Shown: piece by piece, positions 29,369 through 47,753 of the stretch
How positions within the stretch are numbered: position 1 is the stretch's first letter
Layout: every line of letters starts with the position of its first letter
NCBI GenBank assembly: GCA_016926755.1
Contig: JAFGNZ010000326.1
Location: forward strand, 1 to 64,000
DNA: 64,000 nucleotides
Reading direction: 5' to 3'
Source of the DNA: Myxococcaceae bacterium
Lineage (GTDB): Bacteria; Myxococcota; Myxococcia; Myxococcales; Myxococcaceae
Made by a program: the position numbers and the translations under genes
The notes under the pieces: model-generated
What the model saw: only the letters and a program-made list of their open reading frames with translations
Told to the model about the DNA's origin: nothing
The model's database searches: none

Positions 29369-30691
29369 TCAGAGCGAGCCCAGGAACTTCACCAGCGCGG
29401 CGCGCTCCGTCGCGGACAGCGTCCGGAAGTGCTCCCGCGAGCGCTCGGCCTCGCCGCCGTGCCAGAGGATGGCCTCCTCCAGCGTTCGGGCTCGGCCATC
29501 GTGGAGATAGCCCGCGTACGGGAGGACCGTCTGGGTCAGCCCCAGACCCCACAGCGGCGCCGTCCGCCACTCTTGCCCATCCGCCACCCCATCCGGCCGC
29601 CCATCCGCCAACCCCGCTCCCATGTCGTGCAACAGCATGTCCGTGTAGGGGTGGATGCGCTGATGGGCCAGCTCCGGCAATGGGTGCTCTCCTGTCTCCA
29701 GCAGCTCGCGATGGCAGTGCCCACAGCCCGCCGCGAGGAAGAGCTCCTCGCCGTGCTGGACCTCTGCGTCCCCCAGGGCCGTGCGTGCTGGTACCGCGAG
29801 CGACTGGGCATAGAAGACCGCGGCCTCCAGCGTCTCTCGCGGCAGATCATGGGCGCCGTCGGGTTCGGGGAAGAGCGGGCTCGTGACGCCCATGTCGTTG
29901 AAGTAGGCCTCCGCCGACTGCTGGAGCAGGTTGGGACTGTTGGCCTTCAACCCGAATCGCCCCGGCGCGAGCGCACCGGCCTGGACGTCCCAGACCTCGT
30001 TGAGCCGGCCGGAGATGCCATCGCCATTGAGATCGTCGGCGTCCTCCAGGGCGCGCAAGGTGGAGACGTCCACGGCCTCGAGCAGCCCCAGGCCGAAGAC
30101 AGGGGGGGGCAGCCGCAGCGAGGTGAGCAGCTCCGGGGGCAGGGGAGCGCCGTCACTCCTCGCGATGTGGATGCCTGGCCTCCGCAGGCGATAGGGCGTG
30201 CCATCCCCGTAGGCCCCCTCCTCCTCCACCCAGCTCAGGGTGACGGAGGCCTCGGGCGTGAAGCCATGGGTGGCCTGATCCGCCACCTGGGCGCCCAGGC
30301 CTGGGACTGGCACGGGGCCGTTGGGATGGCTTCGCTCGCCCTCGGGCAGGCTGACACGCACGAGGAGCTGGGTGCGCTGCGGGCCAGGCCCCATCACGGG
30401 CATGCCGCGGCCGTTGCGCAGGTGGCACGCGTTGCACGAGTTGTTGTTGAAGAGCGGCCCCAACCCCGGGTTCACGGGGGCTGGCCCCGGGACGAACACC
30501 GCCCCGAACGCCGCATCGCCCTCCCGGTGGCGCTCGAAGTGCTCCGCGGAGAGGTTCGGCGCTGGCTGGGCGAAGGCCAGTGAGGTGCGATCTTCGATGG
30601 TGGTGTCCCCTCCCGCACGGGGAGGTGGCGCCGGCTCACCGCAAGCAGAGGCCAGCGCCATCCATGAGCACAGCGTGAGCGTCCGACGCAT
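29369..30691 (-). CDS. Diheme DUF1111 lipoprotein (thiol oxidoreductase-like)
   Basis: A 440-residue lipoprotein with lipobox Cys17 (LASAC). Two c-type heme motifs are clear: CNACH near residue 85 and CGHCH near 320. The family (DUF1111, di-heme, formerly 'thiol oxidoreductase-like') is commonly encoded beside imelysin-type proteins and is thought to take part in periplasmic iron handling, though direct biochemistry is scarce. The C-terminal YAGYLHDGRARTLEEAILWHGGEA is a family signature. It is the last gene of a three-gene operon behind the imelysin gene (18 nt gap). Maturation needs the heme supply made by the hem genes at 51-61 kb. Confidence 0.88.
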   Translation of the reverse strand: MRRTLTLCSWMALASACGEPAPPPRAGGDTTIEDRTSLAFAQPAPNLSAEHFERHREGDAAFGAVFVPGPAPVNPGLGPLFNNNSCNACHLRNGRGMPVMGPGPQRTQLLVRVSLPEGERSHPNGPVPVPGLGAQVADQATHGFTPEASVTLSWVEEEGAYGDGTPYRLRRPGIHIARSDGAPLPPELLTSLRLPPPVFGLGLLEAVDVSTLRALEDADDLNGDGISGRLNEVWDVQAGALAPGRFGLKANSPNLLQQSAEAYFNDMGVTSPLFPEPDGAHDLPRETLEAAVFYAQSLAVPARTALGDAEVQHGEELFLAAGCGHCHRELLETGEHPLPELAHQRIHPYTDMLLHDMGAGLADGRPDGVADGQEWRTAPLWGLGLTQTVLPYAGYLHDGRARTLEEAILWHGGEAERSREHFRTLSATERAALVKFLGSL

Positions 30692-30709
30692 TGTGTCTAC
30701 CTCGGGTGA

Positions 30710-31789
30710 TTACTGGATGAGCGGCTTGACGTCCGACTCGAACGTGTTCTGGGCCTTGCGGATGGCCGCCTGCGCGGCCTCGATCTCACCGGCTGCCGCC
30801 GGGTCCGTGATGGCGTCTCGGAAGGGCTCCGGGATGCGGCCGAGGGCGTCGATGGCGGCCGTCAGCTCCTGGCGGATCCGTGTATCCAGCTCCGGCCTCT
30901 CCCCCTTCACGAAGTCCGCGAGCGAGGGGCCCTTCGGCGTCGCGCCCGGCAGCCGCCCCAGATAGACGTTCTCCACGCTGCGGAGGTTGTCGGTGAAGTC
31001 CTTGAGCGAGTTGTAGGCAAACTGGCTCTCCACGAGCTGGGGATCCTTCGCGTCGTAGGGGTCGGCGATCTTCCCATTCGCCACCTCATCGAGGATGTTG
31101 ATGATGCCGCCCACCATCTCCTGGGCCGCCGCCTGCACGGAGGGATAGGCGGTGTTCCCCGCTTGCCCGGCGCTCGCCAGCACGTCGCGGTACGGCGGCC
31201 GACCTTCCACCGACTGGCTCCACTCGCTGGCCAGCGCGGCGCTCACGCTCTTGAGCTCCGTGGCGAGGGCCTTCAGGTAATCGAGCTGGCGCTGCGTCAA
31301 GTCCTCGACCTTCTTCGTGCGGCCCTCGCCGAAGAGCAGGTACTCCACCGTGTGGAACCCCTTCTGGGTCTCCTGGAGGTTTCGCACGTACTCGGGCGTG
31401 AAGGCGTCATTGCTCGCGAGCACGGCATCCAGGTCCGTCCGGTTCACCGGCCAGCTGTCCAGCGCCGGGTCGTAGCCGAAGGAGTCCACGGGGCCGAAGA
31501 GGAAGCCTTCGCTCTGCTCCCAGGGCGCTCGCGCGGCGATCCAGGCCTCCTGGGCGGCCGTGAGCTGGGCGGAGGTGGGCCCCGCTGAGAGCGCCGCGAC
31601 CGCGCTGTCCAGGGTGGCCAGGCGGGTGGCCAGCTGCTGGTAGGTGGGCACCACCACGTCATCCGCGAAGTGGGTGATGATCTCCGGCTGGAATCTGGAC
31701 TGCTCCGCGCCGCCATCGGAGCCGCAGGCAGTCAGCGCGAGCGCGCCAGTGAGGACGAGCAAATGAAGCGAGCAGCGGGGGAGTGACAT
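30710..31789 (-). CDS. Imelysin-family lipoprotein
   Basis: A 359-residue lipoprotein, lipobox LALTAC with Cys22. It belongs to the imelysin-like (IrpA/EfeO-related, peptidase M75-type) family: GFHTVEYLLFG near residue 148 is the GxHxxE signature, and PWEQSEGFLFGPVD is the paired motif. The fold is two four-helix bundles. Family members are iron-regulated and appear to bind metal or a metal complex rather than cleave protein. It sits between the porin gene (21 nt upstream) and the DUF1111 gene, so the three products probably work together at the outer membrane and in the periplasm. Confidence 0.9.
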   Translation of the reverse strand: MSLPRCSLHLLVLTGALALTACGSDGGAEQSRFQPEIITHFADDVVVPTYQQLATRLATLDSAVAALSAGPTSAQLTAAQEAWIAARAPWEQSEGFLFGPVDSFGYDPALDSWPVNRTDLDAVLASNDAFTPEYVRNLQETQKGFHTVEYLLFGEGRTKKVEDLTQRQLDYLKALATELKSVSAALASEWSQSVEGRPPYRDVLASAGQAGNTAYPSVQAAAQEMVGGIINILDEVANGKIADPYDAKDPQLVESQFAYNSLKDFTDNLRSVENVYLGRLPGATPKGPSLADFVKGERPELDTRIRQELTAAIDALGRIPEPFRDAITDPAAAGEIEAAQAAIRKAQNTFESDVKPLIQ

Positions 31790-31810
31790 GCGTGTCTTCC
31801 TTCAGGGGGG

Positions 31811-33121
31811 TCAGTAGGAGAAGCCGGTCGAGAGCCTGACGGTGTTCTCCGGACGGAAGCTCGAGGTGTCGCCGAGGCGACGGTGGCTGAAGTCGAGCTT
31901 GGCGAAGGCGAGCCCCGCCAGGGTGTAGGCCGCTCCGAGCGTGTAGATGGAGCGGGCGAAGCGCGGGTTGTCGAAGAGCTCGGTGCGCGGATCGAGCAGC
32001 GCGTCCGCGTAGTCAAAGCGGACGTAGGGCTCCAGCCGGTGGTCCTCGCCGAGCGCGAGGTACGGGGCGATGTCGAAGCCCAGCTCGGCCCAGACCGCGA
32101 GCGCGTGCTCGGCCACGGGCGTGCGCGGCACGTTCAGCAGGTTGGACAGGCGGGCGTTGCGCGCCGAGATGTCATCCGCGTTCTGGAGGTAGCCCCACAG
32201 CGCCAGGGCCTTGGCGCGCCAGGGGCCCCGGTCGAGCGACAGGTGCGCGTCCAGGATCAGCAGGGGCGCGGAGACATGGCCACAGGGCGCCACCTCGCGC
32301 TCGTCCGCCTCCTCGCACGCCTTCACCAGGTCCGGCTTGGGGCGATTGCGAGTCGTGTCCCCGTAGTAGCCGGAGGCTCCGAAGACGAGGCCCTCGAAGC
32401 GGGTGACGTCCGCCCGCAGCACCGCCGCCAGGTCCGTTGCGCGCACCAGCTCGAAGCGGCGCTGGTGCCCTTGCGCCACCCAGCGCTGAGAGCTGAAGCC
32501 CGTGGAGTCCAGCCCGTTGACCACCTGCGCCGTCAGCTTCAGGCCGCTCAGCTTCGCCTGCGCCTGGAGGCCCATCTCGTCCCAGGTGTTGGGGATGAGC
32601 AGCGTCTCCGCCTCTGAGCGCAGGGTGCCCAGGTAGTCGGTGGGCCGGTAGTACTCGCTCAGCGTCCCCACGGCCACGTAGAAGCGCCCCAGCGCCAACG
32701 AGAAGCGGTCCCCGAACTTCTTCTTCAGGTACAGCTCCTCGATGAGCACCTCGCCGCCCTTCTCCACCTCCTGCTCGAACTCCCCGAACTCCTCGTTCTC
32801 GAGCTCCATCGCGGCGCCCGTGCCGCCATGCTCGAACTCCACCTCCACCTCGGCCTCCAGCCCGTACTCGGGCAGGGCCGCCTCCAGCTCCAGCACCAGC
32901 CGCGTGGTGTCGAACGTCATCCGGGCATCACGCTGAGCTCCGCCCTCGCGGTTCTGGTTCTCCCCGTGGTTGTAGAAGGCGAACTGCAGGTCCGCATACC
33001 CGCCAAGCTCCAGCTCGAGCGCAGGCCGCTTCTTCTCAACCTCCTCCTCGGCACGGGCAGAGGGCGCGGAGAGCATGATGACGGTGCACAGCAGGGCGGG
33101 AATGGGGGCGTGGCGGCTCAT
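31811..33121 (-). CDS. Outer-membrane porin-like beta-barrel
   Basis: A 436-residue protein with a cleavable signal peptide (ends SAPSARAEE). The mature part has alternating aromatic/hydrophobic strands of a beta barrel (ELGGYADLQFAFYNH, LAFAKLDFSHRRLG) and ends in Phe-Ser-Tyr, a C-terminal aromatic of the kind the BAM machinery recognises. An acidic loop near residues 95-120 is very Glu-rich (EFEHGGTGAAMELENEEFGEFEQEVE), suited to cation binding. It lies first in the iron-type operon. The ATG at 33121 is chosen over an in-frame TTG 12 nt upstream. The transported solute is inferred, not shown. Confidence 0.85.
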   Translation of the reverse strand: MSRHAPIPALLCTVIMLSAPSARAEEEVEKKRPALELELGGYADLQFAFYNHGENQNREGGAQRDARMTFDTTRLVLELEAALPEYGLEAEVEVEFEHGGTGAAMELENEEFGEFEQEVEKGGEVLIEELYLKKKFGDRFSLALGRFYVAVGTLSEYYRPTDYLGTLRSEAETLLIPNTWDEMGLQAQAKLSGLKLTAQVVNGLDSTGFSSQRWVAQGHQRRFELVRATDLAAVLRADVTRFEGLVFGASGYYGDTTRNRPKPDLVKACEEADEREVAPCGHVSAPLLILDAHLSLDRGPWRAKALALWGYLQNADDISARNARLSNLLNVPRTPVAEHALAVWAELGFDIAPYLALGEDHRLEPYVRFDYADALLDPRTELFDNPRFARSIYTLGAAYTLAGLAFAKLDFSHRRLGDTSSFRPENTVRLSTGFSY

Positions 33122-33158
33122 CGAACGGGGCAACCCTAATCGATCCTGGAGTGAATTT

Positions 33159-33181: not shown

Positions 33182-33207
33182 CAACAAAATCCCCCCTGCG
33201 AGGGGGG
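33182..33207 (-). terminator. Intrinsic terminator of the DUF3108 operon
   Basis: On the minus strand a 7-bp C/G-rich stem (33191-33197 with 33201-33207, loop of 3) is followed by ATTTTGTTG. It lies 35 nt after the DUF3108 stop at 33242 and upstream of the porin promoter. Confidence 0.75.
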
Positions 33208-33241
33208 AGAAGGGCCTCCGGCGCTCAGCGCTGGCCGCCGG

Positions 33242-34150
33242 CTACCACTTGAGCTCTTCCTTGCCCTGGGCTCGCTTCTCCCTCTCCCCAGGTCGCGAGT
33301 ACGCGGTCAGCGTGGCGCGCACGGCCCCCAGGTCGATGGTGCCCACGGCCACGAGCGGCAGCCGGCGCGCGTCATCCGAGATCCACACGTGCACCTCGCG
33401 CTTCTGCGAGGGCCTGTCGAGCCGCACCGCGGTCCCGGACAGGTACCAGGCATCGAACTGCCCGATGGGCAGCGAGACGCGTTCGCGCTTGACCACCGTG
33501 CCGGACATCCGCCACAGACGGCGGATGCCGTACACGTCGAAGCACACGGGCAGCCCCTCCTTCATCGGGAGCTGGCGCATCAGGTAGATGGCGCCCGCTA
33601 CATCCAGCCCGTCCTTGTCGTACGTGAAGTTCAGGCGGCCCGACCGCTTGCCGATCATGTAGTTGCCTTTGACCGAGCGCGCCTTGTGCTCGAAGGCCAC
33701 GTCTACCTTGCGGTGCGTCTCGTTCTCCGTGGCATCCTCGGTGTAGCGCGAAGGCCGCAGCGTCTTCGGGTGGAGGTAGCTCATCCCCACGCCCTTCACC
33801 CGCCGCACCTTGGAGAAGAAGGTGTTGGTCTGCGCCTCGATCTGGATGGGCAGCCGGCCGTTCTCGGGCCGCTGCACCTTCATCGTCATCTTTCCCGCCT
33901 GCGCGCCCATCGCATCCAGGTCGAACTCGAGCAGCTCACCCGGCATGAAGGCGATGGGCGTGCGAAGCGGAGGCAGGGGGTTCGTGCAGAGCGGCACGAC
34001 CGCGGCCTGCTCGGCCGGATCGACCTTCTCGGCCGGCTCTGCCGCGTCTGACTGCCGCGGCGAGCTCTCCTGGGCCGCGCTCCCCTGGGGTACCTGGGCC
34101 CGGGCAGCGGTTGCGAGGAGGACGAGGCTGACCACGAGGACGGAGCGCAT
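33242..34150 (-). CDS. DUF3108 periplasmic protein, copy 2
   Basis: A 302-residue protein with a signal peptide (RSVLVVSLVLLATAARAQ). After a Ser/Glu/Pro-rich linker the DUF3108 domain spans about 75-300: beta strands such as GELLEFDLDAMGAQAGKMTMKVQ and RREVHVWISDDARRLPLVAVGT mark a lipocalin-like barrel. DUF3108 proteins are envelope-associated and their ligand is unknown. ATG 34150 with AGAAGG nine nt upstream; an ATG at 34159 is also possible. Last gene of a three-gene operon that ends in an intrinsic terminator. A second DUF3108 paralogue opens the same operon. Confidence 0.83.
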   Translation of the reverse strand: MRSVLVVSLVLLATAARAQVPQGSAAQESSPRQSDAAEPAEKVDPAEQAAVVPLCTNPLPPLRTPIAFMPGELLEFDLDAMGAQAGKMTMKVQRPENGRLPIQIEAQTNTFFSKVRRVKGVGMSYLHPKTLRPSRYTEDATENETHRKVDVAFEHKARSVKGNYMIGKRSGRLNFTYDKDGLDVAGAIYLMRQLPMKEGLPVCFDVYGIRRLWRMSGTVVKRERVSLPIGQFDAWYLSGTAVRLDRPSQKREVHVWISDDARRLPLVAVGTIDLGAVRATLTAYSRPGEREKRAQGKEELKW

Positions 34151-34190
34151 GGGGAGCATCCTTCTTCCGGCAGGGGCGTGGAAACGGGTT

Positions 34191-35855
34191 TCAGGGTCGG
34201 ACGCCAGGACGCCTGGCATATTCGGAGGACTCCCAGCGCTTGCGCAGGTGGGCTGTCAGGTGCTGTCGGACCTGTTCCCATGTTTTGACGTTCTGCTCAA
34301 TCTCGTGGCCCGAGCGGGCGAGCCGGCGCGTGAATGCCCGCGCGGAGCCTTCATCCCCCAGCCGTGCCAGCAGGTGCAGGTACTCATAGTCCTCCAGTCC
34401 GTCGCGGATGTGCTTGAGCCGCAGCGACACCACCGGCTGGTGCTCCTTCGCCCCCAGCCGTGCCACCGTCCCAGGATAGAAGAGGGTCCCGTCACCGTTG
34501 CCGCCGAACTCGAAGACATCCTTCCAAGGGTCCTTCGTGTTGTAGGCGTAGACCGTGTCGAAATAGAGCTCGCCCTCCACCCCGCTGAGGAAGGCCAGCG
34601 GCCCCATCGCCCGGTTGAGTGGGGCAGGGTGGTCCACCATGTAGGAGGCCCAGCCGCTGTAGGCGCGCTCCACCGCGCGGTCCTCCGTGGGGCCACCCGT
34701 GCAGCCGTGCGAGTTGCAGCTCTGGTACCACCACACCCGCGTCCCAGCGGGCAGCTTCGAACGCAGCTTGGACAGCGGCAGCACGTTCCTGCAGGTCTCC
34801 GGGCCGGAGCGAGGGAAGAAGCAGTTGAGGGTCGGCGTGAGGATGTCCGCCGTCCCTCGCAGCGCCTCATCCAGCGGGGCCGTGACGAGCACCGGGATGC
34901 CGCCCGCCGCGCGCACCCGCGCCGACTGCGCCCGCACGAGGGGGACATCCTCCGGCTTCGGCTCGTCCTTCGCGTAGAAGAAGAGCTGCGCGGACCAGCC
35001 CTTGCGCCGGAAGTGCTCGACGAAGGCGCGGTAGTACGCCACCTTCTCCTTCTCGGTGCTGCACTGGCGGGAGTCCCGCACCTCGGCCGTGGTGAAGCGG
35101 GCGCCGGAGGGCAGCAGGGTCCCGTCGAAGAAGGGCCCCATCTCCTCATCATACGCCTGGAAGTCCACCACCGCGCGCCCATCCTCGAAGCGCACCGGCG
35201 GCGCCTCCATGCTCATTCCATGGGCGCTGACGCGGTGCTCCAGCAGGGCCCGTCCATACGCGCGCAGCAGCGCCCGGGCCTCCGCGGACTCCGGGGGGAG
35301 CCCGTGTCCGCGCGCGATGCTGAAGAGGGAGATGCCGAAGCTCGTCGGCAGCGAGGACGTCGCTGGCAGCTCGAAGGGCTGGACCTCCACTGTGAACGGC
35401 ACGGGCGCCACCGCGCTCCCGTCCGCCTTCACGCGCAGCTCGCCGCGGTACGTCCCGGGCTCCTGCTTGCCAGGCGCGCACACCTCCACGTAGAGCACGG
35501 CGGGCAGGGAGGGCTCCCCCAGCGTCTCCACCGGGACGAGCGGATCCGGCCAGGGCCCTGGCTGCCCCTGGCTGTTGGAGGGGATCTTCACGTCCACGAA
35601 GGCCTCGCGCCACAGTGAGGCGGACAGCCTTCTACCGGGGCCCTTCAGCACGAGCGGCTGCGCCGTCACGCGGCGGACGCTCCCGGGGAGGACCACCTGC
35701 GCGGCCTCGCACTCGCCCCGCGCCAGGCTCAGCCGGGCCTCCGAGGTGCCCTCCACCGAGACGCCTGGCCTCACCTTCACCAGCGATGACACCACCTTCG
35801 GCCCCGGCGCTGCAGCCAGCACCGCCGTGAGCGCCCACGCCCAACCCGCTCCCAT
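34191..35855 (-). CDS. DUF4091 secreted protein, glycoside-hydrolase-like
   Basis: A 554-residue protein with a signal peptide (MGAGWAWALTAVLAAAPG). Residues about 20-170 form an N-terminal beta domain. Residues about 170-540 are the DUF4091 region: RAYGRALLEHRVSAHGMSMEAPP, QLFFYAKDEPKPEDVP and WWYQSCNSHGCTG resemble a TIM-barrel glycosidase fold, and AKDEP is the site where an acid catalyst would sit. Family members are probable glycoside hydrolases or glycan-binding proteins, but no substrate is established. It lies between two DUF3108 genes on one strand, 40 nt upstream of copy 2 and 18 nt downstream of copy 1, pointing to a joint envelope-glycan or lipid role. Confidence 0.83.
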   Translation of the reverse strand: MGAGWAWALTAVLAAAPGPKVVSSLVKVRPGVSVEGTSEARLSLARGECEAAQVVLPGSVRRVTAQPLVLKGPGRRLSASLWREAFVDVKIPSNSQGQPGPWPDPLVPVETLGEPSLPAVLYVEVCAPGKQEPGTYRGELRVKADGSAVAPVPFTVEVQPFELPATSSLPTSFGISLFSIARGHGLPPESAEARALLRAYGRALLEHRVSAHGMSMEAPPVRFEDGRAVVDFQAYDEEMGPFFDGTLLPSGARFTTAEVRDSRQCSTEKEKVAYYRAFVEHFRRKGWSAQLFFYAKDEPKPEDVPLVRAQSARVRAAGGIPVLVTAPLDEALRGTADILTPTLNCFFPRSGPETCRNVLPLSKLRSKLPAGTRVWWYQSCNSHGCTGGPTEDRAVERAYSGWASYMVDHPAPLNRAMGPLAFLSGVEGELYFDTVYAYNTKDPWKDVFEFGGNGDGTLFYPGTVARLGAKEHQPVVSLRLKHIRDGLEDYEYLHLLARLGDEGSARAFTRRLARSGHEIEQNVKTWEQVRQHLTAHLRKRWESSEYARRPGVRP

Positions 35856-35873
35856 GTCTCCGCCTTTCGCGGC

Positions 35874-36671
35874 CTAGCCGCCCTGCACCTCGCCCATCGC
35901 CCACAGGCGCCCCTGCTTGTACTCGGTGAGCTCCGCGACAATGGAGCCCAACGCGAAGTCCGCCTCGATCCGCACCGGGACATGGCTCGAGTCCGTCGTG
36001 AAGTACGCGACGATGTCGCGCCGGGTCTGCAGCTTCTCGGAGAACTCCGTCTGGAGCTTCACCCGGAACACCTCCCGCTCCCCCAGCGCCGTCCTCAAGC
36101 GCTGCCGCCCCTCCACCTTCGCGCGCAGCGTGAAGCTCTTGCGGCCGGTGAAGACCGGGCAGGTGTACTCCTGGCCTTCGGCGATCCCCCGGCTGCGCAG
36201 CGCGAACGCCGCGGCCGCCATGTCCATCGAGCCCGCGGGCAGCTCGTGCGTCGCCTCGACAGGGGCCGCGCCCTCGTGCTGCCGGATGACGTGGGCCGTG
36301 CGCCCTTCATCCTGCAGCTTGATCCGCTGGCGGCGCCGCTTGTTGTTCTCGTCTACGAAGAAGTCGCTGCCCAGCGAGCGCTGGGCCTCCGCCTGCCAGT
36401 ACGTGACGAACTTGTCCTTGATGGGCCACACGCCGAGCGCCGGATCCGACTTCGCCAGCGAGACGATGGGCCACACCTGCTGCCCCCACTGCTTCATCGG
36501 CGCGCCCACGGTGATCTGGGCCGTCCCCGCCGTCATCCCCAGGTACTGGACCCGGTAGAGCGACTGCTCCCCTGGCCCGAATGCCTTGTTGGCCTCCTGG
36601 GCCGTGGCAACACTGGAGAAGATCATCCCTGACAGCAGGCCCACGATCGCACCCTTGAACCGCCTGTGCAT
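35874..36671 (-). CDS. DUF3108 periplasmic protein, copy 1
   Basis: A 265-residue protein starting MHRRFKGAIVGLLSGMIFSSVATAQ (signal peptide). DUF3108 spans about 30-260, with GEQSLYRVQYLGMTAGTAQITVG and AYFTTDSSHVPVRIEADFALGSIVAELT. Compared with copy 2 it shares the domain but little else, and its linker is short, so the pair is an old duplication. GGGAGC lies 5 nt upstream of the ATG. A longer frame back to 36812 lacks the signal peptide. First gene of the operon; the 340-nt gap to the right holds its promoter region. Confidence 0.83.
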   Translation of the reverse strand: MHRRFKGAIVGLLSGMIFSSVATAQEANKAFGPGEQSLYRVQYLGMTAGTAQITVGAPMKQWGQQVWPIVSLAKSDPALGVWPIKDKFVTYWQAEAQRSLGSDFFVDENNKRRRQRIKLQDEGRTAHVIRQHEGAAPVEATHELPAGSMDMAAAAFALRSRGIAEGQEYTCPVFTGRKSFTLRAKVEGRQRLRTALGEREVFRVKLQTEFSEKLQTRRDIVAYFTTDSSHVPVRIEADFALGSIVAELTEYKQGRLWAMGEVQGG

Positions 36672-37239: not shown

Positions 37240-37905
37240 TCAGTCCCGCTCTCCGAAGATGGCGGTGCCCACCCGCACGACCGTGGCCCCTTCTTCGATG
37301 GCCAGCTCGAAGTCGTGCGTCGTCCCCATGGACAGGCCCATGAGCCCCTGCGCATGGGCCAGCTCCCGCAGCTGCCGGAAGTACCCGCGCGCCTGCTCCA
37401 GGTCCTCCGTAGGCGGGGGGAGCGCCATCAGCCCCTCCAGCCGCAGGCCCGGCAGCGCGCGCACCTGCTCCAGGAAGGGCCCGAGCGCCGCCGGGGCCAG
37501 CCCGCTCTTGCTCTGCTCGCCCCCCAGGTTCACCTCGACGTAGCAGGGCAGGGGCGCATCGGCCCGGCGCTTGGACAGCTCGCGCGCCACGTCCAGCCGC
37601 TCCAGCGCGTGGAAGGCGTGCGCCGCCCGGGCCACGTACTTCACCTTGTTCGTCTGCAGCGGCCCGATGGCGTGCCAGCGCAGCCCCTCCAGCCCGGCCA
37701 GCTCCGCGGCCTTGTCCCGCAGCTCCTGCGCGTAGTTCTCGCCGAAGTCTCGCTGCCCTGCCTCGTACGCCTCGCGGATGAGCGCCGAGGGCTTGAGCTT
37801 CGACACGGCCAGCAGCGTCACCGACTCCACGGGGCGCCCCGCGCGCGCGCACGCCGCGGCGATCCGGGAGCGGATCTCCCCCAGGCGCTCGGCCACACCG
37901 CTCAT
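37240..37905 (-). CDS. yggS: YggS-family PLP-binding protein
   Basis: A 221-residue member of the YggS/PLPBP family, which binds pyridoxal 5'-phosphate and helps balance B6 and amino-acid pools without a known catalytic activity. The PLP lysine lies in LAVSKLKPS (Lys36). Later signatures are [20 protein letters not shown] and [28 protein letters not shown], where the family usually has Met-Ser at the MGTT position, a mild deviation. It overlaps maf by 4 nt, so the two are translationally coupled. Confidence 0.95.
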
Positions 37906-38498
37906 GGTGCCCTCCAGGGCAGGGGGACCCCCGCGCGCGTCAACAGCTCCAGGGTCTCCCCCAGGGGCAGGCCAATGACGTTGGTGGGGCTGCCCTCCAC
38001 CGCGGCGACCAGGAACCCGCCTCGGCCCTGGATGGCGTAGGCCCCTGCCTTGTCCAGCGGCTCGCCGGTGCCCACGTACCAGTCGATCTCCCCGGCGGAG
38101 AGCGCTCGAAAGGTGACGCCGGTGCGGACCACCGTGGCGGAGTCGGCGCGGCCCGCCAGCGCTACACCCGTGTAGACGGCGTGGGTACGGCCGGAGAGCC
38201 GACCGAGCATCTCCTGCGCCTCGGCCGGCCCGCTCGGCTTGCCGAGCAGCTCCGCGCCCAGGACCACCGTGGTGTCGGCCGCCAGCACCCAGGCGCCCGG
38301 ATGCCGCTCGGCCACGGCGCGGGCCTTGGCGCGAGCCAGCCGCAGCACGTAGGCGTCGGCCGCCTCACCTGCCAGGGGGGTCTCGTCCAGATCCGCCGCG
38401 GAGACCGTGAAGCGCAGTCCTAGCTGGGAGAGCAGCTCGCGCCGCCGCGGCGAAGCGGAAGCAAGGACGAGGGGCGTGGGATCCTCTAGAGTGTGCAT
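37902..38498 (-). CDS. maf: Maf-family nucleotide pyrophosphatase
   Basis: A 198-residue Maf protein. The fold removes pyrophosphate from noncanonical or pyrimidine nucleoside triphosphates as a house-cleaning step. Signatures: [19 protein letters not shown], then [15 protein letters not shown] (catalytic Asp), [12 protein letters not shown], and [13 protein letters not shown] with [11 protein letters not shown]. The length is normal. It is followed by yggS with a 4-nt overlap. The ATG 38498 lies 51 nt from the divergent diguanylate cyclase start. Confidence 0.95.
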
Positions 38499-41489: not shown

Positions 41490-43058
41490 CTAGCTGGAGC
41501 CCACCACGCTGTCGATGGCCTCGGTGTTGGTGACCACCGTGCCCTGCTTGCGCAGCGCCTTGAGGAAGGAGTCCTCGAGCTCGATCTGCTTGGCGCGGCG
41601 GGCCTGCTGGCGCAGCTCGTCCTTCTTCTTGTTGAACTCCTCGTCGCTGGCCTTCTGGCGCTCGGTGACCTGGGCCAGCACGAAGCCCTCGCCCACGGGG
41701 AACACCTGGTCCAGCACCTGCGGGCCCTGGGCGGCGAACGACGCCGAGATGAGCTGGGGCGCGGGGCCCAGGTAGGGCACCGACTCGCTGCCCGCGGTGA
41801 AGCTGCCCGTCTCCACCGCCTCCGGGCGCGTCTCCGTCTCGAAGCGCTGGAGCGCCGGCTGGCCCGCCTTCTCCGGCGGGAAGAGCTCCTGCAGCGTCCT
41901 GCCGCCCTTGAGGGTCGCCAGCGCCTTCTCCGCCTCTGCCTTCGCCATCTCCTTGGCCTGCTGCTGCTTGAGGAGCGTGGTGGCGATCTCGTTCTCCACC
42001 TCCGCCAGCTTCCGGTCCGCCGCGGCCTGCTTGTGCTCCACCTTCACCACGTGGAAGCCCAGCTTCGTCTCGATGGGCTCCGAGACGCTGTTCGGCGCCA
42101 GCGCGAAGACGGCGTCCGTCAGGGCCGGATCCAGGCTGCCGCGCTCCACCAGGCCCAGGTCGCCGCCCGCGGCCTTGGTGCCGGGATCCTCGCTGCGCTC
42201 GCTGGCCACCGTGGAGAAGTCCTTGTTGGCCTCGACGATCTCCTTGCGGATCGCCTCCGCGCGGGCCTTGGCCTCCGCCTTCTGCTCCGCCGAGGCGTCC
42301 GCCGGCAGCTTCACCAGGATCTGCCGCGCCTTCACGCGCTCCGGCTGCTGGTACATGAAGCGGTTCGTCTCGTAGTAGTCCGAGATCTCCTGGGCGTGCG
42401 CCTTCTTGAACTCCTCGATCTGCTCGGGCGTGGGGGGCGGCACCTTCGCCGCGTACATGGTGGGCAGGAAGCGCGCGAACACCACCTTGGCCTGGTTGGC
42501 GTCCTTCTCGTAGCGCGCGCGGACCTCTTCATCCGAGACGACGGCGCCGTTGCGCACCACCTCCATCATCTTCCGCGCCGCCAGCTCATGGCGCAGATCC
42601 TCCTCGTACTGCTGCTCCGTCATCCGGTAGAAGTCGCGCAGCATGGTGCGGTAGTGCTGGAAGTCGAACTGGCCGTCCTTCTGGAAGTCCGTGTTCTTGT
42701 GGAGGACCTCCACCAGCTCGGCGTCCGAGGCGACGATCCCGTACCGGTTCGCGGCCTGGGAGACCAGCTCGCTGTCCACCAAGCCCTGCACCACCTGCTG
42801 TGGCAGCATCTGCCGCACGTAGGACTCGGGGATGGGCACGCCGCGGTTGCGCAGGTTGTTGAGCTGGTTGTTGTAGCGGAGGATGAAGTCGCGCAGCGGG
42901 ATCTCCTCACCGTTGACGACCGCCACGGTGCTTGGGGCAGCCTGCTGGCCACTGCCGCTGAAGCCCGTGCTCCCCGGCCCGAAGCTCAGGGTAAACACCA
43001 CTGCGATGGCGATGATGAACGCCAGCGAGACGACCTTCCGGGGGCTCAAACCTTCCAT
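41490..43058 (-). CDS. PpiD/SurA-like membrane-anchored peptidyl-prolyl isomerase
   Basis: A 522-residue protein with an N-terminal membrane anchor (residues about 9-30) and a periplasmic body. Residues about 40-190 are the SurA/PpiD N-terminal chaperone module (VAVVNGEEIPLRDFILRYNNQL). A parvulin domain follows at about 255-365, with VKARQILVKLP, FSTVASERSEDPGTKAAGGDLGLVERG and LGFHVVKVEHK; the helical rest extends to 522. It probably folds newly exported outer-membrane proteins. Divergent from the mre operon with 223 nt between starts. Confidence 0.9.
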   Translation of the reverse strand: MEGLSPRKVVSLAFIIAIAVVFTLSFGPGSTGFSGSGQQAAPSTVAVVNGEEIPLRDFILRYNNQLNNLRNRGVPIPESYVRQMLPQQVVQGLVDSELVSQAANRYGIVASDAELVEVLHKNTDFQKDGQFDFQHYRTMLRDFYRMTEQQYEEDLRHELAARKMMEVVRNGAVVSDEEVRARYEKDANQAKVVFARFLPTMYAAKVPPPTPEQIEEFKKAHAQEISDYYETNRFMYQQPERVKARQILVKLPADASAEQKAEAKARAEAIRKEIVEANKDFSTVASERSEDPGTKAAGGDLGLVERGSLDPALTDAVFALAPNSVSEPIETKLGFHVVKVEHKQAAADRKLAEVENEIATTLLKQQQAKEMAKAEAEKALATLKGGRTLQELFPPEKAGQPALQRFETETRPEAVETGSFTAGSESVPYLGPAPQLISASFAAQGPQVLDQVFPVGEGFVLAQVTERQKASDEEFNKKKDELRQQARRAKQIELEDSFLKALRKQGTVVTNTEAIDSVVGSS

Positions 43059-43281
43059 GGTGCTGTCGCTTCTTCCTGCTGGGCGCCGGAAATCACCTCC
43101 GCGGAAGGACTCGCGGCGCGGGTTTGTTGGATGCCCGGCTGGTAGGTAGACGGTTCTGCTCCACCCCCGCGCAGGGCCTTGACTGCGTAGGATAACCCCC
43201 CAGAAAATGCAAGCGATTTACAGTGTTTAGCCGCCCGCCCTCCTTGCTGATCCTCATTCCCTACACGGGGACTCCGGCCCA

Positions 43282-44133
43282 GTGCTATCGCTCTTCAAGC
43301 GGTACCGTCAGCTGCTCATCGTGAGTGTGCTGCTGCTCTACCCGCTGGTCGCCTTCCTGGTGACCGGCCGGCGGGGCCGTGAGCCCAACTTCCTGGATCG
43401 CGCCCTCATCGCCATGACGTCGCCGCTCCAGTCCGGACTCAACTGGATCATCGACGGCGTGGTGGGCACGGTGAACCACTATGTGGACCTGCGGGGCGTG
43501 CGGCTGGAGAATGACGCGCTGCGACTGGAGAACATGCAGCTGCGCGCGGCGGTGCAGGCGCTGGGAGAGGCGCGCTCCGAGAACGAGCGGCTGAGGCAGC
43601 TGCTGGCCTACGCGGAGGCGGCGCCGGGGCCGGAGATCCCCGCGCGGGTGGTGGGGGTGAACCCGGTGGCGCGGCTGCTGTCGGTGCGGATCAGCAGCGG
43701 GGAGCAGCAGGGCGTGTTCCAGGGCATGTCGGTGGTGACGCCGGATGGCATCGTCGGGCAGGTGATCCGGACGACGGGAGGCTACGCGGACGTGGCGCTG
43801 GTGACGGATCCGCAGAGCCGGGTGGGCGTGAGGGTGCAGCGCTCGCGGGCGCGGGGCACGGCGGCGGGCGCGGGCAACGGGCCGCTCAGGCTGGAGAACA
43901 TGCTGCGCACCGAGGACGTGGAGAACGGCGAACTGATCATCACCTCCGGGACGGATGGCGTGTACCCGCCGGGGCTGGTGGTGGGGCGCGTGGCGAACCT
44001 CGCGAAGAAGGAGCACGGCATGTTCCAGGGCGCGGACATCCTGCCCGCGGTGGACACGACGAAGCTCGAGGAGGTGCTCGTGGTGGGCAGCCCGTACCGC
44101 CAGGCGGCGCCGGTGGTGGAGGGGACGCGATGA
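43282..44133 (+). CDS. mreC: Rod-shape protein MreC
   Basis: A 283-residue bitopic protein: one transmembrane helix (about 10-28), a coiled coil (about 70-105: LENDALRLENMQLRAAV) and two beta domains outside. It scaffolds the elongation complex of MreB, MreD, RodA and PBP2 along the lateral wall. Start GTG 43282 with no strong ribosome-binding site. Its stop overlaps mreD by 4 nt (ATGA). First gene of mreC-mreD-mrdA-rodA; mreB itself is not in the window. Confidence 0.95.
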   Translation: MLSLFKRYRQLLIVSVLLLYPLVAFLVTGRRGREPNFLDRALIAMTSPLQSGLNWIIDGVVGTVNHYVDLRGVRLENDALRLENMQLRAAVQALGEARSENERLRQLLAYAEAAPGPEIPARVVGVNPVARLLSVRISSGEQQGVFQGMSVVTPDGIVGQVIRTTGGYADVALVTDPQSRVGVRVQRSRARGTAAGAGNGPLRLENMLRTEDVENGELIITSGTDGVYPPGLVVGRVANLAKKEHGMFQGADILPAVDTTKLEEVLVVGSPYRQAAPVVEGTR

Positions 44134-44633
44134 AGTTCCTGGTGACGGTGGGGCTCGCGCTGTTGCTGCTCACGCTGGAGTCCGTGCTGGTGCAGCGGGC
44201 GGGCCTGGTGCTCACCCGCATTGACGTGACGGTGGTGCTGCTGTCGTTCCTCGCGCTGCGCGCCTCGCTGCTGGAGGGGGCCTGCTCCGCCTTCGCGGTG
44301 GGCTACCTGCTGGATCTGATGAGCGGCCAGCCCACGGGCCTCTTCACCTTCCTGGGCGTCTTCATCTTCCTGGCCGGGCGGCTGGTGTACTCGCTGCTGG
44401 ACGTGCGCGGCACGCCCGCCTTCGTGCTCTTCACCATGGGCGCGGACATGGCCCATGGGCTGCTGGCGGCCTTCTTCGGCTGGCTGACGGTGAAGGACGG
44501 CTCGGCCACGGCGGTGCTGCCGGGCCTGCCGCTGCAGGTGGCGCTCACTGGGGCGGCGGCGCTCGCCCTCTATCCGCTGCTGCGCAGGATCGAGGCGCGC
44601 CAGGAGCGCACCCAGGCCGGAGGGCTGCTGTGA
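44130..44633 (+). CDS. mreD: Rod-shape protein MreD
   Basis: A 167-residue membrane protein with about five transmembrane helices. It bridges MreC and the RodA/PBP2 synthase in the elongation complex. GYLLDLMSGQPTGLFTFLGVFIFLAGRL is the conserved core. Overlaps of 4 nt on both sides tie it to mreC and mrdA. Confidence 0.93.
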   Translation: MKFLVTVGLALLLLTLESVLVQRAGLVLTRIDVTVVLLSFLALRASLLEGACSAFAVGYLLDLMSGQPTGLFTFLGVFIFLAGRLVYSLLDVRGTPAFVLFTMGADMAHGLLAAFFGWLTVKDGSATAVLPGLPLQVALTGAAALALYPLLRRIEARQERTQAGGLL

Positions 44634-46618
44634 CGCCTCCGACGCTTGGCAACACCACGCCAGGCCGCGATCTCAAGCGGCGCTTCCTGTGGCTGGGCCT
44701 GGCCTTCGTGGGGGGCCTGCTCGTGCTGTCCATGCAGCTGTACCGGCTGCAGATCATCCGCGGCGAGGAGTACGCCGCCAAGAGCGTGGCCAACTTCGTG
44801 AAGGAGGTCCGCCTGCGCGCGGACCGCGGCGTCATCAAGGACGCGCGCGGCACCATCCTGGTGGACAGCCGCCCCTCGTTCGACGCCTTCATCACCCCGG
44901 CCTTCTGCACGGACTGCGCGGCGCAGGTGCTGCCTCGGCTGGCCGAGCTGCTGGGCTGGGACGCGGAGCAGCGCCAGAAGGTGGAGGAGCTGGTGCGCGT
45001 GGGGCGCCGCAGCGCCCCCTTCCAGCCGGTGCCGATCCGCATCGATCTCACGCGGGACGAGCTGGATCTGCTCAACGCGCGGCGCGACATCCTGGACGGC
45101 GTGGAGGTGGTGCCGGTGCCGCACCGCAACTACCGCACGGGCTCGGTGCTCTCGCACGTGCTGGGGTACATGAACGAGATCACCCAGGACGAGCTGGGGC
45201 GGCTCAACGCGGACGGGGCGAAGTACGCGCTGGGCGACTACATCGGCCGGCGTGGCCTGGAGCGCTACTTCGAGTCGCGGCTGCGCGGGGTGGACGGGGT
45301 GCGCAAGGAGGTGGTGAACGCGCGAGGGCAGACGCTGACGGATCTGAACGAGAAGCTCGGAGAGAACTCGGTGGTGTTGCCCCAGGCGGGCAGCAACGTG
45401 GTGCTCTCGCTCGACATGCGGCTCCAGGAGGAGGCCGAGAAGGCCTTCCCGGGCGTGGCCGGCGCGGTGGTCGCCATCGACGTGAACACCGGCTTCATCC
45501 GCGCGGTGGTGTCGAGGCCGGGCTTCGATCCCAACCTGCTCACCGGCCGCGTCACGTCGTCGCAGATGGTGGAGCTGATGAAGGATCCGCTCCAGCCGAT
45601 GATCAACCGCGTGGCCGCCCAGCACTACAGCCCGGGCTCCACGTTCAAGGTCGTCACGCAGCTGGCGGCCTTCAAGTCCGGCCAGTTCCGGCCGGAGTCG
45701 GTGGTCAACTGCCTGGGCGGCTACAAGCTCGGCGCGCGCACCTGGCGCTGCCACAAGGACGCCGGCCACGGCCCCATGGATGCGAAGCACGCGCTCCAGT
45801 ACTCGTGCAACACCTGGTTCTACAAGGTGGCGGACACGATCGGGCTGGATGCCATCTCGGAGATGGGCAAGGCGCTCGGGCTGGGCAGCCCCACGGGCAT
45901 CGGCGTGCTGGGCGAGGTGCCCGGCATCATGCCCAGCACCGAGTACCATGATCGGCTCTCCCCGGGCGGCTACGCCAAGGGCATGGCGCTCAACAGCGCC
46001 GTGGGCCAGGGCGACGACAACGTGACGCCGCTGCAGCTGGCGCTGGTGTACGCGGCGATCGCCAACGGCGGCACGCTGTACAAGCCCCAGCTCGTGCAGC
46101 GCATCGAGGACCTGGATGGCCACGCCATCGAGGCGTTCGACCCGCAGGTGGTGCGCCAGATGGAGATCAACCCCGCGCACCGCAAGGCCATCGTGGACGC
46201 GCTGGTCGCGGTGGTGCACGAGGCGGGAGGCACTGCCTATCGGACGCGGCTCCAGGATGTCCTGGTCGCGGGCAAGACGGGCACCGCCCAGGTGGTTCGC
46301 ATCGGCGCGGTGCGCCTGAAGACGCACCAGATGGACTTCTTCGCGCGCCACCATGCCTGGTTCGCCGGGTTCGCGCCCGCCGACAACCCGGAGATCGCCG
46401 TGGTGGTGCTCAACGAGCACGGCGGGCAGGGCGGCTCGGACGCGGCGCCCACGGGCATGGCCGTCATCCAGAAGTACTTCGAGCTGAAGAAAGAGGACGC
46501 GAGCTCTCCGCCGCCGCGCTCCAACCAGCCCTACGTCCTGACGCTGCCTCCGGCGCCGAAGCTGGAGGACGTCATGCTCACCCGCGGCGCGAGCCCCCCG
46601 AATGCAGCTCAGCATTGA
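44630..46618 (+). CDS. mrdA: Penicillin-binding protein 2 (elongation transpeptidase)
   Basis: A 662-residue class B PBP. After a transmembrane anchor (about 20-42) comes the pedestal domain and the transpeptidase. Active-site motifs: SxxK as STFK with Ser337, SCN near 392 and KTG near 548. It cross-links peptidoglycan made by RodA during elongation and is a beta-lactam target. Start GTG 44630, overlapping mreD by 4 nt. The last 17 nt overlap the start of rodA. Confidence 0.96.
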   Translation: MTPPTLGNTTPGRDLKRRFLWLGLAFVGGLLVLSMQLYRLQIIRGEEYAAKSVANFVKEVRLRADRGVIKDARGTILVDSRPSFDAFITPAFCTDCAAQVLPRLAELLGWDAEQRQKVEELVRVGRRSAPFQPVPIRIDLTRDELDLLNARRDILDGVEVVPVPHRNYRTGSVLSHVLGYMNEITQDELGRLNADGAKYALGDYIGRRGLERYFESRLRGVDGVRKEVVNARGQTLTDLNEKLGENSVVLPQAGSNVVLSLDMRLQEEAEKAFPGVAGAVVAIDVNTGFIRAVVSRPGFDPNLLTGRVTSSQMVELMKDPLQPMINRVAAQHYSPGSTFKVVTQLAAFKSGQFRPESVVNCLGGYKLGARTWRCHKDAGHGPMDAKHALQYSCNTWFYKVADTIGLDAISEMGKALGLGSPTGIGVLGEVPGIMPSTEYHDRLSPGGYAKGMALNSAVGQGDDNVTPLQLALVYAAIANGGTLYKPQLVQRIEDLDGHAIEAFDPQVVRQMEINPAHRKAIVDALVAVVHEAGGTAYRTRLQDVLVAGKTGTAQVVRIGAVRLKTHQMDFFARHHAWFAGFAPADNPEIAVVVLNEHGGQGGSDAAPTGMAVIQKYFELKKEDASSPPPRSNQPYVLTLPPAPKLEDVMLTRGASPPNAAQH

Positions 46619-47753
46619 ACGACGCATGGTGCCCCACGTCCCGTGGGGCCTGATCTTCTGTGTCCTGGCCATCGCGGGGCTGGGCATCTGGAACCTGGCC
46701 TCGGCGGCGCGGCCCCCGCACTCGTCCGTCTGGTCTACCCAGCTGATCTACCTGGGCGTGGGCCTGGGGGCGGGGCTCATGGTGTGCCTGGTGGACTACC
46801 GCTGGATCCAGCGGATGGTGGTGCCCATCTACGTGCTCAACATCCTGGCGCTGATCGCCCTGCGCTTCGTGGGGCACAAGGCCAAGGGCGCCGAGAGCTG
46901 GTTCGTGCTGGGCCCGGTGCGCGTGCAGCCCGCCGAGTTCATGAAGATCGGCGTGCTGCTGATGCTGGCGAAGATCTACCACGACGACTTCCGGCCCAAC
47001 CAGGAGTCCTACGGGCTGCTGCGGCTGTGGAAGCCGGTGCTGGTGGTGGCGGTGCCCTTCGTGCTCGTGCTGGTGCAGCCGGATCTGGGCACGGCGATGA
47101 TGATCTTCCTGTCCTCGCTCACCGTCATCCTCTTCGGCCGGGTGCGCTGGTACCTGGTGGCGGTGATGGTGGTGGGGGTGCTGACGGCCGCGGGCGTGAT
47201 CTGGAACGACTACGTGCGGGAGGCGCCGGAGCCGAAAACGACGATCCTCCGGCACCACCTGAAGAAGCACCAGAGCCAGCGCATCTCCGGGTGGCTGGAT
47301 CCCGAGGCGGATCTGCGGGGCAGTGGCTACCACGCCGCGCAGTCGAAGATCGCCGTGGGCAGCGGCCTGATGATGGGCAAGGGCTGGCGGGAGGGCACCC
47401 AGACGGGCCTGTCCTTCCTCCCCGAGCAGCACACGGACTTCATCTTCTCCGTGTGGGCGGAGGAGCACGGCTTCCTGTTCTGCCTGATGCTGCTGGTGCT
47501 CTATGGAGGGCTGTTCTCCCTGGCGCTGGCGGTGGGCTTCAACGCCCGGGACCGGTTCGGCTCCTTCGTGGCCGTGGGCGTCACCGCCATGCTCTTCTGG
47601 CAGGTGTTCGAGAACATCGGCATGGTGATTGGCCTGCTGCCGGTGACGGGCATCACGCTGCCGCTGATGAGCTACGGCGGCTCCTCCATGCTCTCGGTGA
47701 TGCTCAGCATCGGCCTGCTGGTGAACATCAGCATGCGCCGCCACATGTTCTGA
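46602..47753 (+). CDS. rodA: RodA peptidoglycan glycosyltransferase (SEDS)
   Basis: A 383-residue SEDS protein with about ten transmembrane helices, which polymerises lipid II into glycan strands with PBP2. SEDS signatures: AESWFVLGPVRVQPAEFMKIG, QPDLGTAM and, near the end, GITLPLMSYGGSSML. The start overlaps mrdA by 17 nt, and the coupling keeps both in step. It ends 1 nt from the convergent mgtE stop, so no room for a terminator remains; antisense overlap of transcripts is likely. Confidence 0.96.
   Translation: MQLSIERRMVPHVPWGLIFCVLAIAGLGIWNLASAARPPHSSVWSTQLIYLGVGLGAGLMVCLVDYRWIQRMVVPIYVLNILALIALRFVGHKAKGAESWFVLGPVRVQPAEFMKIGVLLMLAKIYHDDFRPNQESYGLLRLWKPVLVVAVPFVLVLVQPDLGTAMMIFLSSLTVILFGRVRWYLVAVMVVGVLTAAGVIWNDYVREAPEPKTTILRHHLKKHQSQRISGWLDPEADLRGSGYHAAQSKIAVGSGLMMGKGWREGTQTGLSFLPEQHTDFIFSVWAEEHGFLFCLMLLVLYGGLFSLALAVGFNARDRFGSFVAVGVTAMLFWQVFENIGMVIGLLPVTGITLPLMSYGGSSMLSVMLSIGLLVNISMRRHMF

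Follow-up and report, generated by a model that had tools for sequence, protein, structure and literature searches.

DUF3108 proteins occur in bacteria as far apart as Bacteroidetes, Burkholderia and Neisseria; to our knowledge they have no assigned function. Their likeness to the YmcC fold was noted earlier (PMC4364669). Members of another family, DUF4091, which Pfam now names GH123_cat, are beta-N-acetylgalactosaminidases or hexosaminidases that act by a retaining mechanism and carry a catalytic Asp-Glu pair; one of them, NgaCa, is a strictly oligosaccharide-releasing enzyme of Group 1 (PMC11087588). Brucella EipB is a periplasmic envelope-integrity protein whose mutants are sensitive to envelope stress; it may act on outer-membrane proteins, on lipoproteins or on other targets, and a 2023 account found it to lack clear structural homologs (PMC10787603). 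Here we analyse a 64,000-nucleotide stretch of a Myxococcaceae bacterium (contig JAFGNZ010000326.1, positions 1 to 64,000; the window), in which two DUF3108 genes (A and C) flank a GH123_cat gene (G). We favour, at a confidence slightly short of even, a reading of A-G-C as a periplasmic module for the editing of envelope glycans, composed of an EipB-like pair and a lineage-specific hydrolase. The genes and sites of the trio are as follows.

35874..36671, minus strand: gene A, DUF3108 protein of 265 amino acids (aa) with a signal-peptide-like N-terminus and a predicted EipB-type beta-spiral (PF11306, E 3.2e-35)
34191..35855, minus strand: gene G, glycosidase of the GH123 superfamily (former DUF4091), 554 aa, with a signal-peptide-like N-terminus (PF13320, E 1.2e-8)
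34986..34991, minus strand: codons of the catalytic Asp-Glu pair of G, D297-E298 (coordinates from the reading frame; alignments)
33242..34150, minus strand: gene C, DUF3108 protein of 302 aa with a predicted EipB-type beta-spiral (PF11306, E 2.8e-27)
33190..33208, minus strand: candidate intrinsic terminator 3' of C, an 8-bp stem and then TTTTGTTG (hairpin scan)

The three genes are transcribed in the order A-G-C from the minus strand, and positions 33242-36671 are bounded precisely by the stop of C and the start of A. All three Pfam matches exceed the curated cut-offs (PF11306, 122.3 bits for A and 96.3 bits for C with a gathering score of 26; PF13320, 35.2 bits for G with a cut-off of 23.1). 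A preliminary description of the locus had proposed three secreted proteins lying head to tail on one strand, with two unequal DUF3108 copies around a DUF4091 protein; the coordinates, the Pfam matches and a signal-peptide-like N-terminus read by eye on each protein confirm it. The same reading found no lipobox on the three N-termini in the window genome. The gaps are 18 bp between A and G and 40 bp between G and C, taking the start of C at 34150 that is conserved in the orthologs (an upstream start, extending C to 34219, is possible), and they suggest a single transcript. The clear terminator of the preliminary description is plausible by position: a G+C-rich stem with the T-rich tail TTTTGTTG (33208-33190) lies 34 bp past the stop of C. 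It is not borne out by statistics: the scan found three terminator-type sites where chance alone would give 2.2, and the stability of the hairpin was not above that of composition-matched shuffles (z -0.5). The terminator is therefore plausible and statistically not proven. All three genes are under purifying selection in comparison with Hyalangium versicolor, with ratios of nonsynonymous to synonymous substitution of 0.26 (A), 0.24 (G) and 0.37 (C); this species is also among the closest named records of the A protein (83%), and the window belongs to a relative of Hyalangium and Stigmatella. A search of the window genome for DUF3108 genes returned A and C and no others, and the family of C has a conserved C-terminal KW. 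A phage origin of the trio was considered and rejected on finding no PHROG match. The locus gave no structured RNA at gathering score, and NCBIfam has no named family for A, G or C, or for the porin after the trio.

The preliminary description had treated DUF4091 as a family with no settled role. This does not stand, since its relatives are characterised beta-N-acetylgalactosaminidases (PMC11087588), and the default guess for G is a glycosidase directed at beta-linked N-acetylgalactosamine (beta-GalNAc). A profile of 23 myxobacterial orthologs of G matched NgaCa best (PDB 8k2f, E 2.1e-46), followed by Group 3 (2e-31), Group 2 (2e-28), GH123 proper (5e-7) and Group 4 (1e-5). The lead of NgaCa over Group 3 amounts to 15 orders of magnitude in this profile comparison, and G may belong to the oligosaccharide-releasing Group 1, whose members have an open cleft. 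By sequence, G shares with NgaCa the architecture of a beta-sandwich and a DUF4091/GH123_cat domain, the catalytic Asp-Glu pair, and the conserved Tyr377, Gly428, Tyr460 and Arg479. Asp297-Glu298 of G is invariant in the 23 orthologs and is aligned with the Asp-Glu pair of NgaDssm. Seven of the nine residues conserved across all characterised groups are kept in G, as judged by pairwise and profile alignments. The two exceptions also set G apart from NgaCa: Trp115 is replaced by Tyr122, and Trp431, which contacts the sugar in NgaLy, is replaced by Phe432. The position of Phe432 is occupied by Tyr in several orthologs and by Trp in the Vulgatibacter-like one. Because the nine residues had been defined on 17 sequences, the two changes mark divergence and do not exclude G from GH123, and its catalysis is likely to be intact. 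G further differs from NgaCa in the four Cys residues 49, 126, 380 and 385, which are invariant in the myxobacterial trio clade, and in its place in a conserved operon with a DUF3108 pair.

A different contig of the window genome encodes a further GH123-type protein (C20 of G000, 3825-5402, minus strand; L131:3549-5441, minus strand). Compared as single sequences, this paralog is nearer to NgaCa than G is (7e-30 versus 3e-13). Its counterpart in a related genome (L132:9217-11166, plus strand) carries a MYXO-CTERM tail that scores above the cut-off of TIGR03382; the tail of the window genome's own paralog is MYXO-CTERM-like by eye and did not score. The paralog is probably a surface-bound glycosidase of the beta-GalNAc type, and the trio enzyme G is probably not surface-bound. 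In two loci (L072 and L074), G itself has a lipobox, which would tether it to the envelope.

The AlphaFold models of A and C have mean pLDDT (predicted local distance difference test) values of 82.3 and 82.1, with most of the domain above 90. For both models the best structural match is EipB (6ntr), at Z 17.0 and 3.4 Å over 210 residues for A and at Z 15.9 and 3.3 Å over 213 residues for C, well above unrelated structures. A bovine sperm axoneme chain (9fqr_Xh) also matches both models, at Z 15.5 and 15.6, close to EipB. The next matches are a DUF1089 protein, YmcC-like proteins, VioE and LolA/LolB, and for C also the mycobacterial lipoglycan carrier LmcA. The YmcC-like proteins (3fzx, 2in5) and the lipid and lipoprotein carriers LolA, LolB, LmcA and LppX have a related open-barrel fold (Z about 7-11; LolA at 7-9); however, they are shorter and match more weakly than EipB. 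The preliminary description had called DUF3108 lipocalin-like. EipB, YmcC-like proteins and LolA rank above any lipocalin, so that lipocalins are not needed for A and C, rather than excluded by their absence from the match list. We predict from the models that A and C have the EipB-type beta-spiral fold. Like EipB, they are exported proteins from a conserved envelope gene neighbourhood. In contrast to EipB, they occur as two copies with a hydrolase between them, and their neighbourhood is mre-ppiD-maf-yggS-uvrC rather than bamA-lpx-cdsA. The sequence identity to EipB is 8-10%, and the sequence family is not DUF1849: a Pfam scan of A and C up to E 1 gave DUF3108 alone, without DUF1849 or the Lol families, and a search of the PDB with single sequences or profiles gave nothing significant. 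A fold match between EipB and DUF3108 was not found stated in the literature searched.

These folds also bear on another explanation, in which A and C would serve outer-membrane proteins or lipoproteins as periplasmic chaperones or carriers of the LolA/LolB or Skp kind, and G would be loosely coupled and merely co-transcribed. EipB, the nearest fold, has been discussed as a factor of this kind (PMC10787603), LolA/LolB come next, the locus lies near a SurA/PpiD-type chaperone gene, and G is lost in places while A and C remain. However, 71 of 77 trio-type G genes adjoin C, and these loci repeatedly carry another enzyme of glycan type. This linkage exceeds chance co-transcription, and we regard the chaperone explanation as unlikely, although it is the least improbable of the three rivals considered here.

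The conservation of the trio was examined in 59 genomes drawn from its genus, family and order, almost all of them members of the same order, with arrangements judged by strand and distance; because some contigs are short, the arrangement counts are lower bounds. A is present in most of these genomes, C in 58 and a match to the G profile in 44. The order A-G-C occurs in 26/59 with gaps of 28-454 bp; elsewhere, A and C are adjacent without G (8 genomes), G and C (8) or A and G (2) stand as pairs, and the rest are split. In a phylum-wide draw of 145 genomes, trio-type G (570 bits or more) was found in 77, with C directly downstream at 42-643 bp in 71 of them. No trio-type G was seen outside the order; C-like proteins do occur there. 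The preliminary description had named lack of conservation as a unit as grounds against its proposal, and this is not borne out. The trio does stand as a unit in the sense that A-G-C is conserved; however, its core is the DUF3108 pair, and G is an optional part that is absent in several lineages.

The locus belongs to a conserved block, mreD-mreC-ppiD-(GGDEF)-maf-yggS-zinc ribbon-[A-G-C]-DUF507, which the window shares with Myxococcus and with far-removed members of the order (L073-L075); in the Myxococcaceae loci, uvrC lies beyond DUF507. In the trio loci inspected, maf, yggS, ppiD and mreCD are the usual neighbours. The trio is therefore old and mostly inherited vertically, in a neighbourhood of envelope and cell-shape genes. 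The conserved neighbours in the window, all outside the trio, are as follows.

37240..37905, minus strand: yggS-type gene (Ala_racemase_N), upstream of A (Pfam; synteny)
37902..38498, minus strand: maf (Pfam, E 6.5e-63; synteny)
41490..43058, minus strand: SurA/PpiD-type periplasmic chaperone-isomerase (Pfam; synteny)
43231..47753, plus strand: cell-shape cluster of mreC, mreD, a penicillin-binding transpeptidase and a rodA-type gene, on the far side of the block (Pfam; phmmer)

The setting of the trio bears on two further explanations. In the first, G would act on glycans of prey or of the environment to release sugars, and these products would be bound by the DUF3108 proteins. The GH123 enzymes known so far break down glycans of a host or of the environment (PMC11087588), and most carriers of the trio are predatory. 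However, transporter and sugar catabolism genes are absent from the unit, its strict vertical synteny with mre genes is unlike that of mobile catabolic loci, and the paralog with the MYXO-CTERM-like tail in the same clade is a better fit for degradation at the surface. Such a scavenging role is very unlikely.

The second explanation is a developmental system that would remodel a GalNAc-rich spore coat or matrix exopolysaccharide, two candidate substrates suggested by analogy with Myxococcus xanthus. In that species GalNAc is the main sugar of the spore coat (PMC3858216) and has been reported in spore-coat material and exopolysaccharide (PMC9603273), and the presumed targets of Group 1 enzymes are long-chain repeats (PMC11087588). 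However, the locus is a housekeeping neighbourhood. Moreover, the trio is carried by G044 and G056, presumably Anaeromyxobacter, and by G039, presumably Vulgatibacter, which are not known for fruiting-body sporulation. We consider this explanation quite improbable, though slightly likelier than the scavenging role; given the breadth of the trio's distribution, the spore coat alone fits poorly and is unlikely to be the sole substrate.

In many relatives, a fourth gene is found at these loci, where it either diverges from A or C or follows A downstream. Its product, about 700-780 aa long, contains two pieces of PF00756 whose order is reversed. Its motifs are GVSMGG near the N-terminus, GDHVGT near residue 510 and HGYG near residue 592, and the catalytic serine elbow, the histidine and the oxyanion segment of PF00756 are all present. 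In profile comparisons both pieces match ferulic acid esterases of family CE1 (e.g. 7xrt) and other CE1 enzymes; the C-terminal piece aligns with the start of these enzymes and the N-terminal piece with their middle, as a circular permutation would give. The protein thus shares the GxSMGG elbow and the GDHxGT and HGYG segments with CE1 enzymes; it differs from them in the permuted segments within one protein of about 710 aa and in an insert resembling a calcium loop (DxNGNGRRDxxEP). It is apparently a circularly permuted CE1-like esterase. Several copies have a lipobox, and in others the start is ambiguous. Copies that stand beside DUF3108 genes include the following.

L048:11254-13380, plus strand: CE1-like esterase
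L069:6460-8571, minus strand: CE1-like esterase
L051:5970-8099, minus strand: CE1-like esterase
L078:6414-8678, minus strand: CE1-like esterase
L080:9048-11285, plus strand: CE1-like esterase
L083:5693-8035, minus strand: CE1-like esterase

The esterase occurs in 23 of the 59 genomes, and in 17 of these a comparison of coordinates puts it no more than 400 bp from A or C; within this sample none was found in the window genome or its genus. Ten genomes have both G and the esterase, 13 the esterase only, 32 G only and four neither, with a loose threshold for G and some genomes incomplete. The two are negatively associated (Fisher p 3e-4 by genome and 0.008 by genus, without correction for phylogeny), which hints that they tend to exclude each other. 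O-acetylated polymers of M. xanthus, such as the biosurfactant polysaccharide (PMC7310880), illustrate a candidate substrate of the esterase in other species.

The reading of A-G-C as an envelope-glycan editing module draws together the conserved order and G-C linkage, the conserved envelope block, the invariant Asp-Glu pair, the EipB match of both DUF3108 models and the recurrence of the CE1-like esterase at the same loci. We infer that the three proteins would cooperate in the periplasm. G would be exported and act as a Group-1-like retaining GH123 enzyme with a substrate-assisted Asp-Glu pair, cleaving an internal or terminal beta-N-acetylhexosamine linkage, most likely beta-GalNAc, in a glycan or glycolipid of the envelope or the surface. 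A and C, as two different EipB-like beta-spirals, would bind this glycan, free or linked to lipid, and either deliver it or maintain its solubility; alternatively, they would scaffold the enzyme. The hydrolase would be interchangeable by lineage around the DUF3108 core: the GH123 enzyme here, the CE1-like esterase elsewhere, and both in some genomes.

Several points weigh against this module. With Phe432 and Tyr122 in place of Trp, the specificity of G may have moved away from plain beta-GalNAc. The predicted likeness of A and C to the EipB fold in itself shows no function, and no glycan synthesis genes are found in the trio locus of the window. Some genomes keep A and C but have no G, so that the pair must be able to work on its own as well. 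The preliminary description had suggested a system that trims or carries an envelope or matrix polymer or glycolipid. The conserved unit, the glycan enzyme and the envelope neighbourhood speak for that suggestion; its lipocalin basis falls away, and the spore coat is unlikely as the sole substrate. An undescribed pathway is possible.

Some neighbouring genes were recorded beside the trio. The conserved block is interrupted in the window by an operon of a porin-like protein, an imelysin (Peptidase_M75) lipoprotein and a di-haem oxidoreductase (29369-33133, minus strand), which lies between the trio and DUF507-uvrC, and by a gene for a flavin adenine dinucleotide (FAD) oxidase. The porin operon is missing or decayed in several Myxococcus genomes, and L097 retains a weak oxidoreductase remnant only. 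A 540-aa exported protein with no Pfam match (27267-28889, plus strand) adjoins DUF507 and uvrC across the Myxococcaceae. In one genus only (g34), proteins with an OmpA domain are encoded directly upstream of A (L065:9307-11775 and L066:9157-11481, both minus strand); in L065, a polysaccharide cluster of Wzz, ParA and sugar-transferase genes lies beside A on the opposite strand.

The orthologs in M. xanthus are inferred to be MXAN_2639 (A), MXAN_2638 (G) and MXAN_2637 (C), by counting genes from MXAN_2643, a GGDEF protein (PMC4877007), and MXAN_2645, which is MreC (PMC6627406). MXAN_2649, which has been deleted (PMC8316039), lies outside the inferred trio. No mention of MXAN_2636-2641 was found in the main text of the literature searched.

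The families of all parts of the trio are known. What seems to be undescribed in the searchable literature is their combination and its conservation, together with the link to the EipB fold and the permuted esterase partner. In a wider and more doubtful proposal, which we consider unlikely, the locus would be a new kind of module for maintaining envelope glycans that goes back to the ancestor of the order Myxococcales. In it, an exchangeable hydrolase, either a GH123-like glycosidase or a permuted CE1 lipoprotein esterase, would be presented with a glycan or glycolipid by two EipB-like beta-spiral proteins, and the module would be coupled to the elongation machinery by its fixed place beside mreCD-pbp-rodA. 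If this is true, DUF3108 proteins, and perhaps EipB too, would share a function in glycan handling. The placement of DUF3108 on the EipB fold, together with the genetic tie to named glycan enzymes, raises one testable question for both families, namely whether these beta-spirals handle glycans or glycolipids, and it can be addressed in the genetically tractable M. xanthus.

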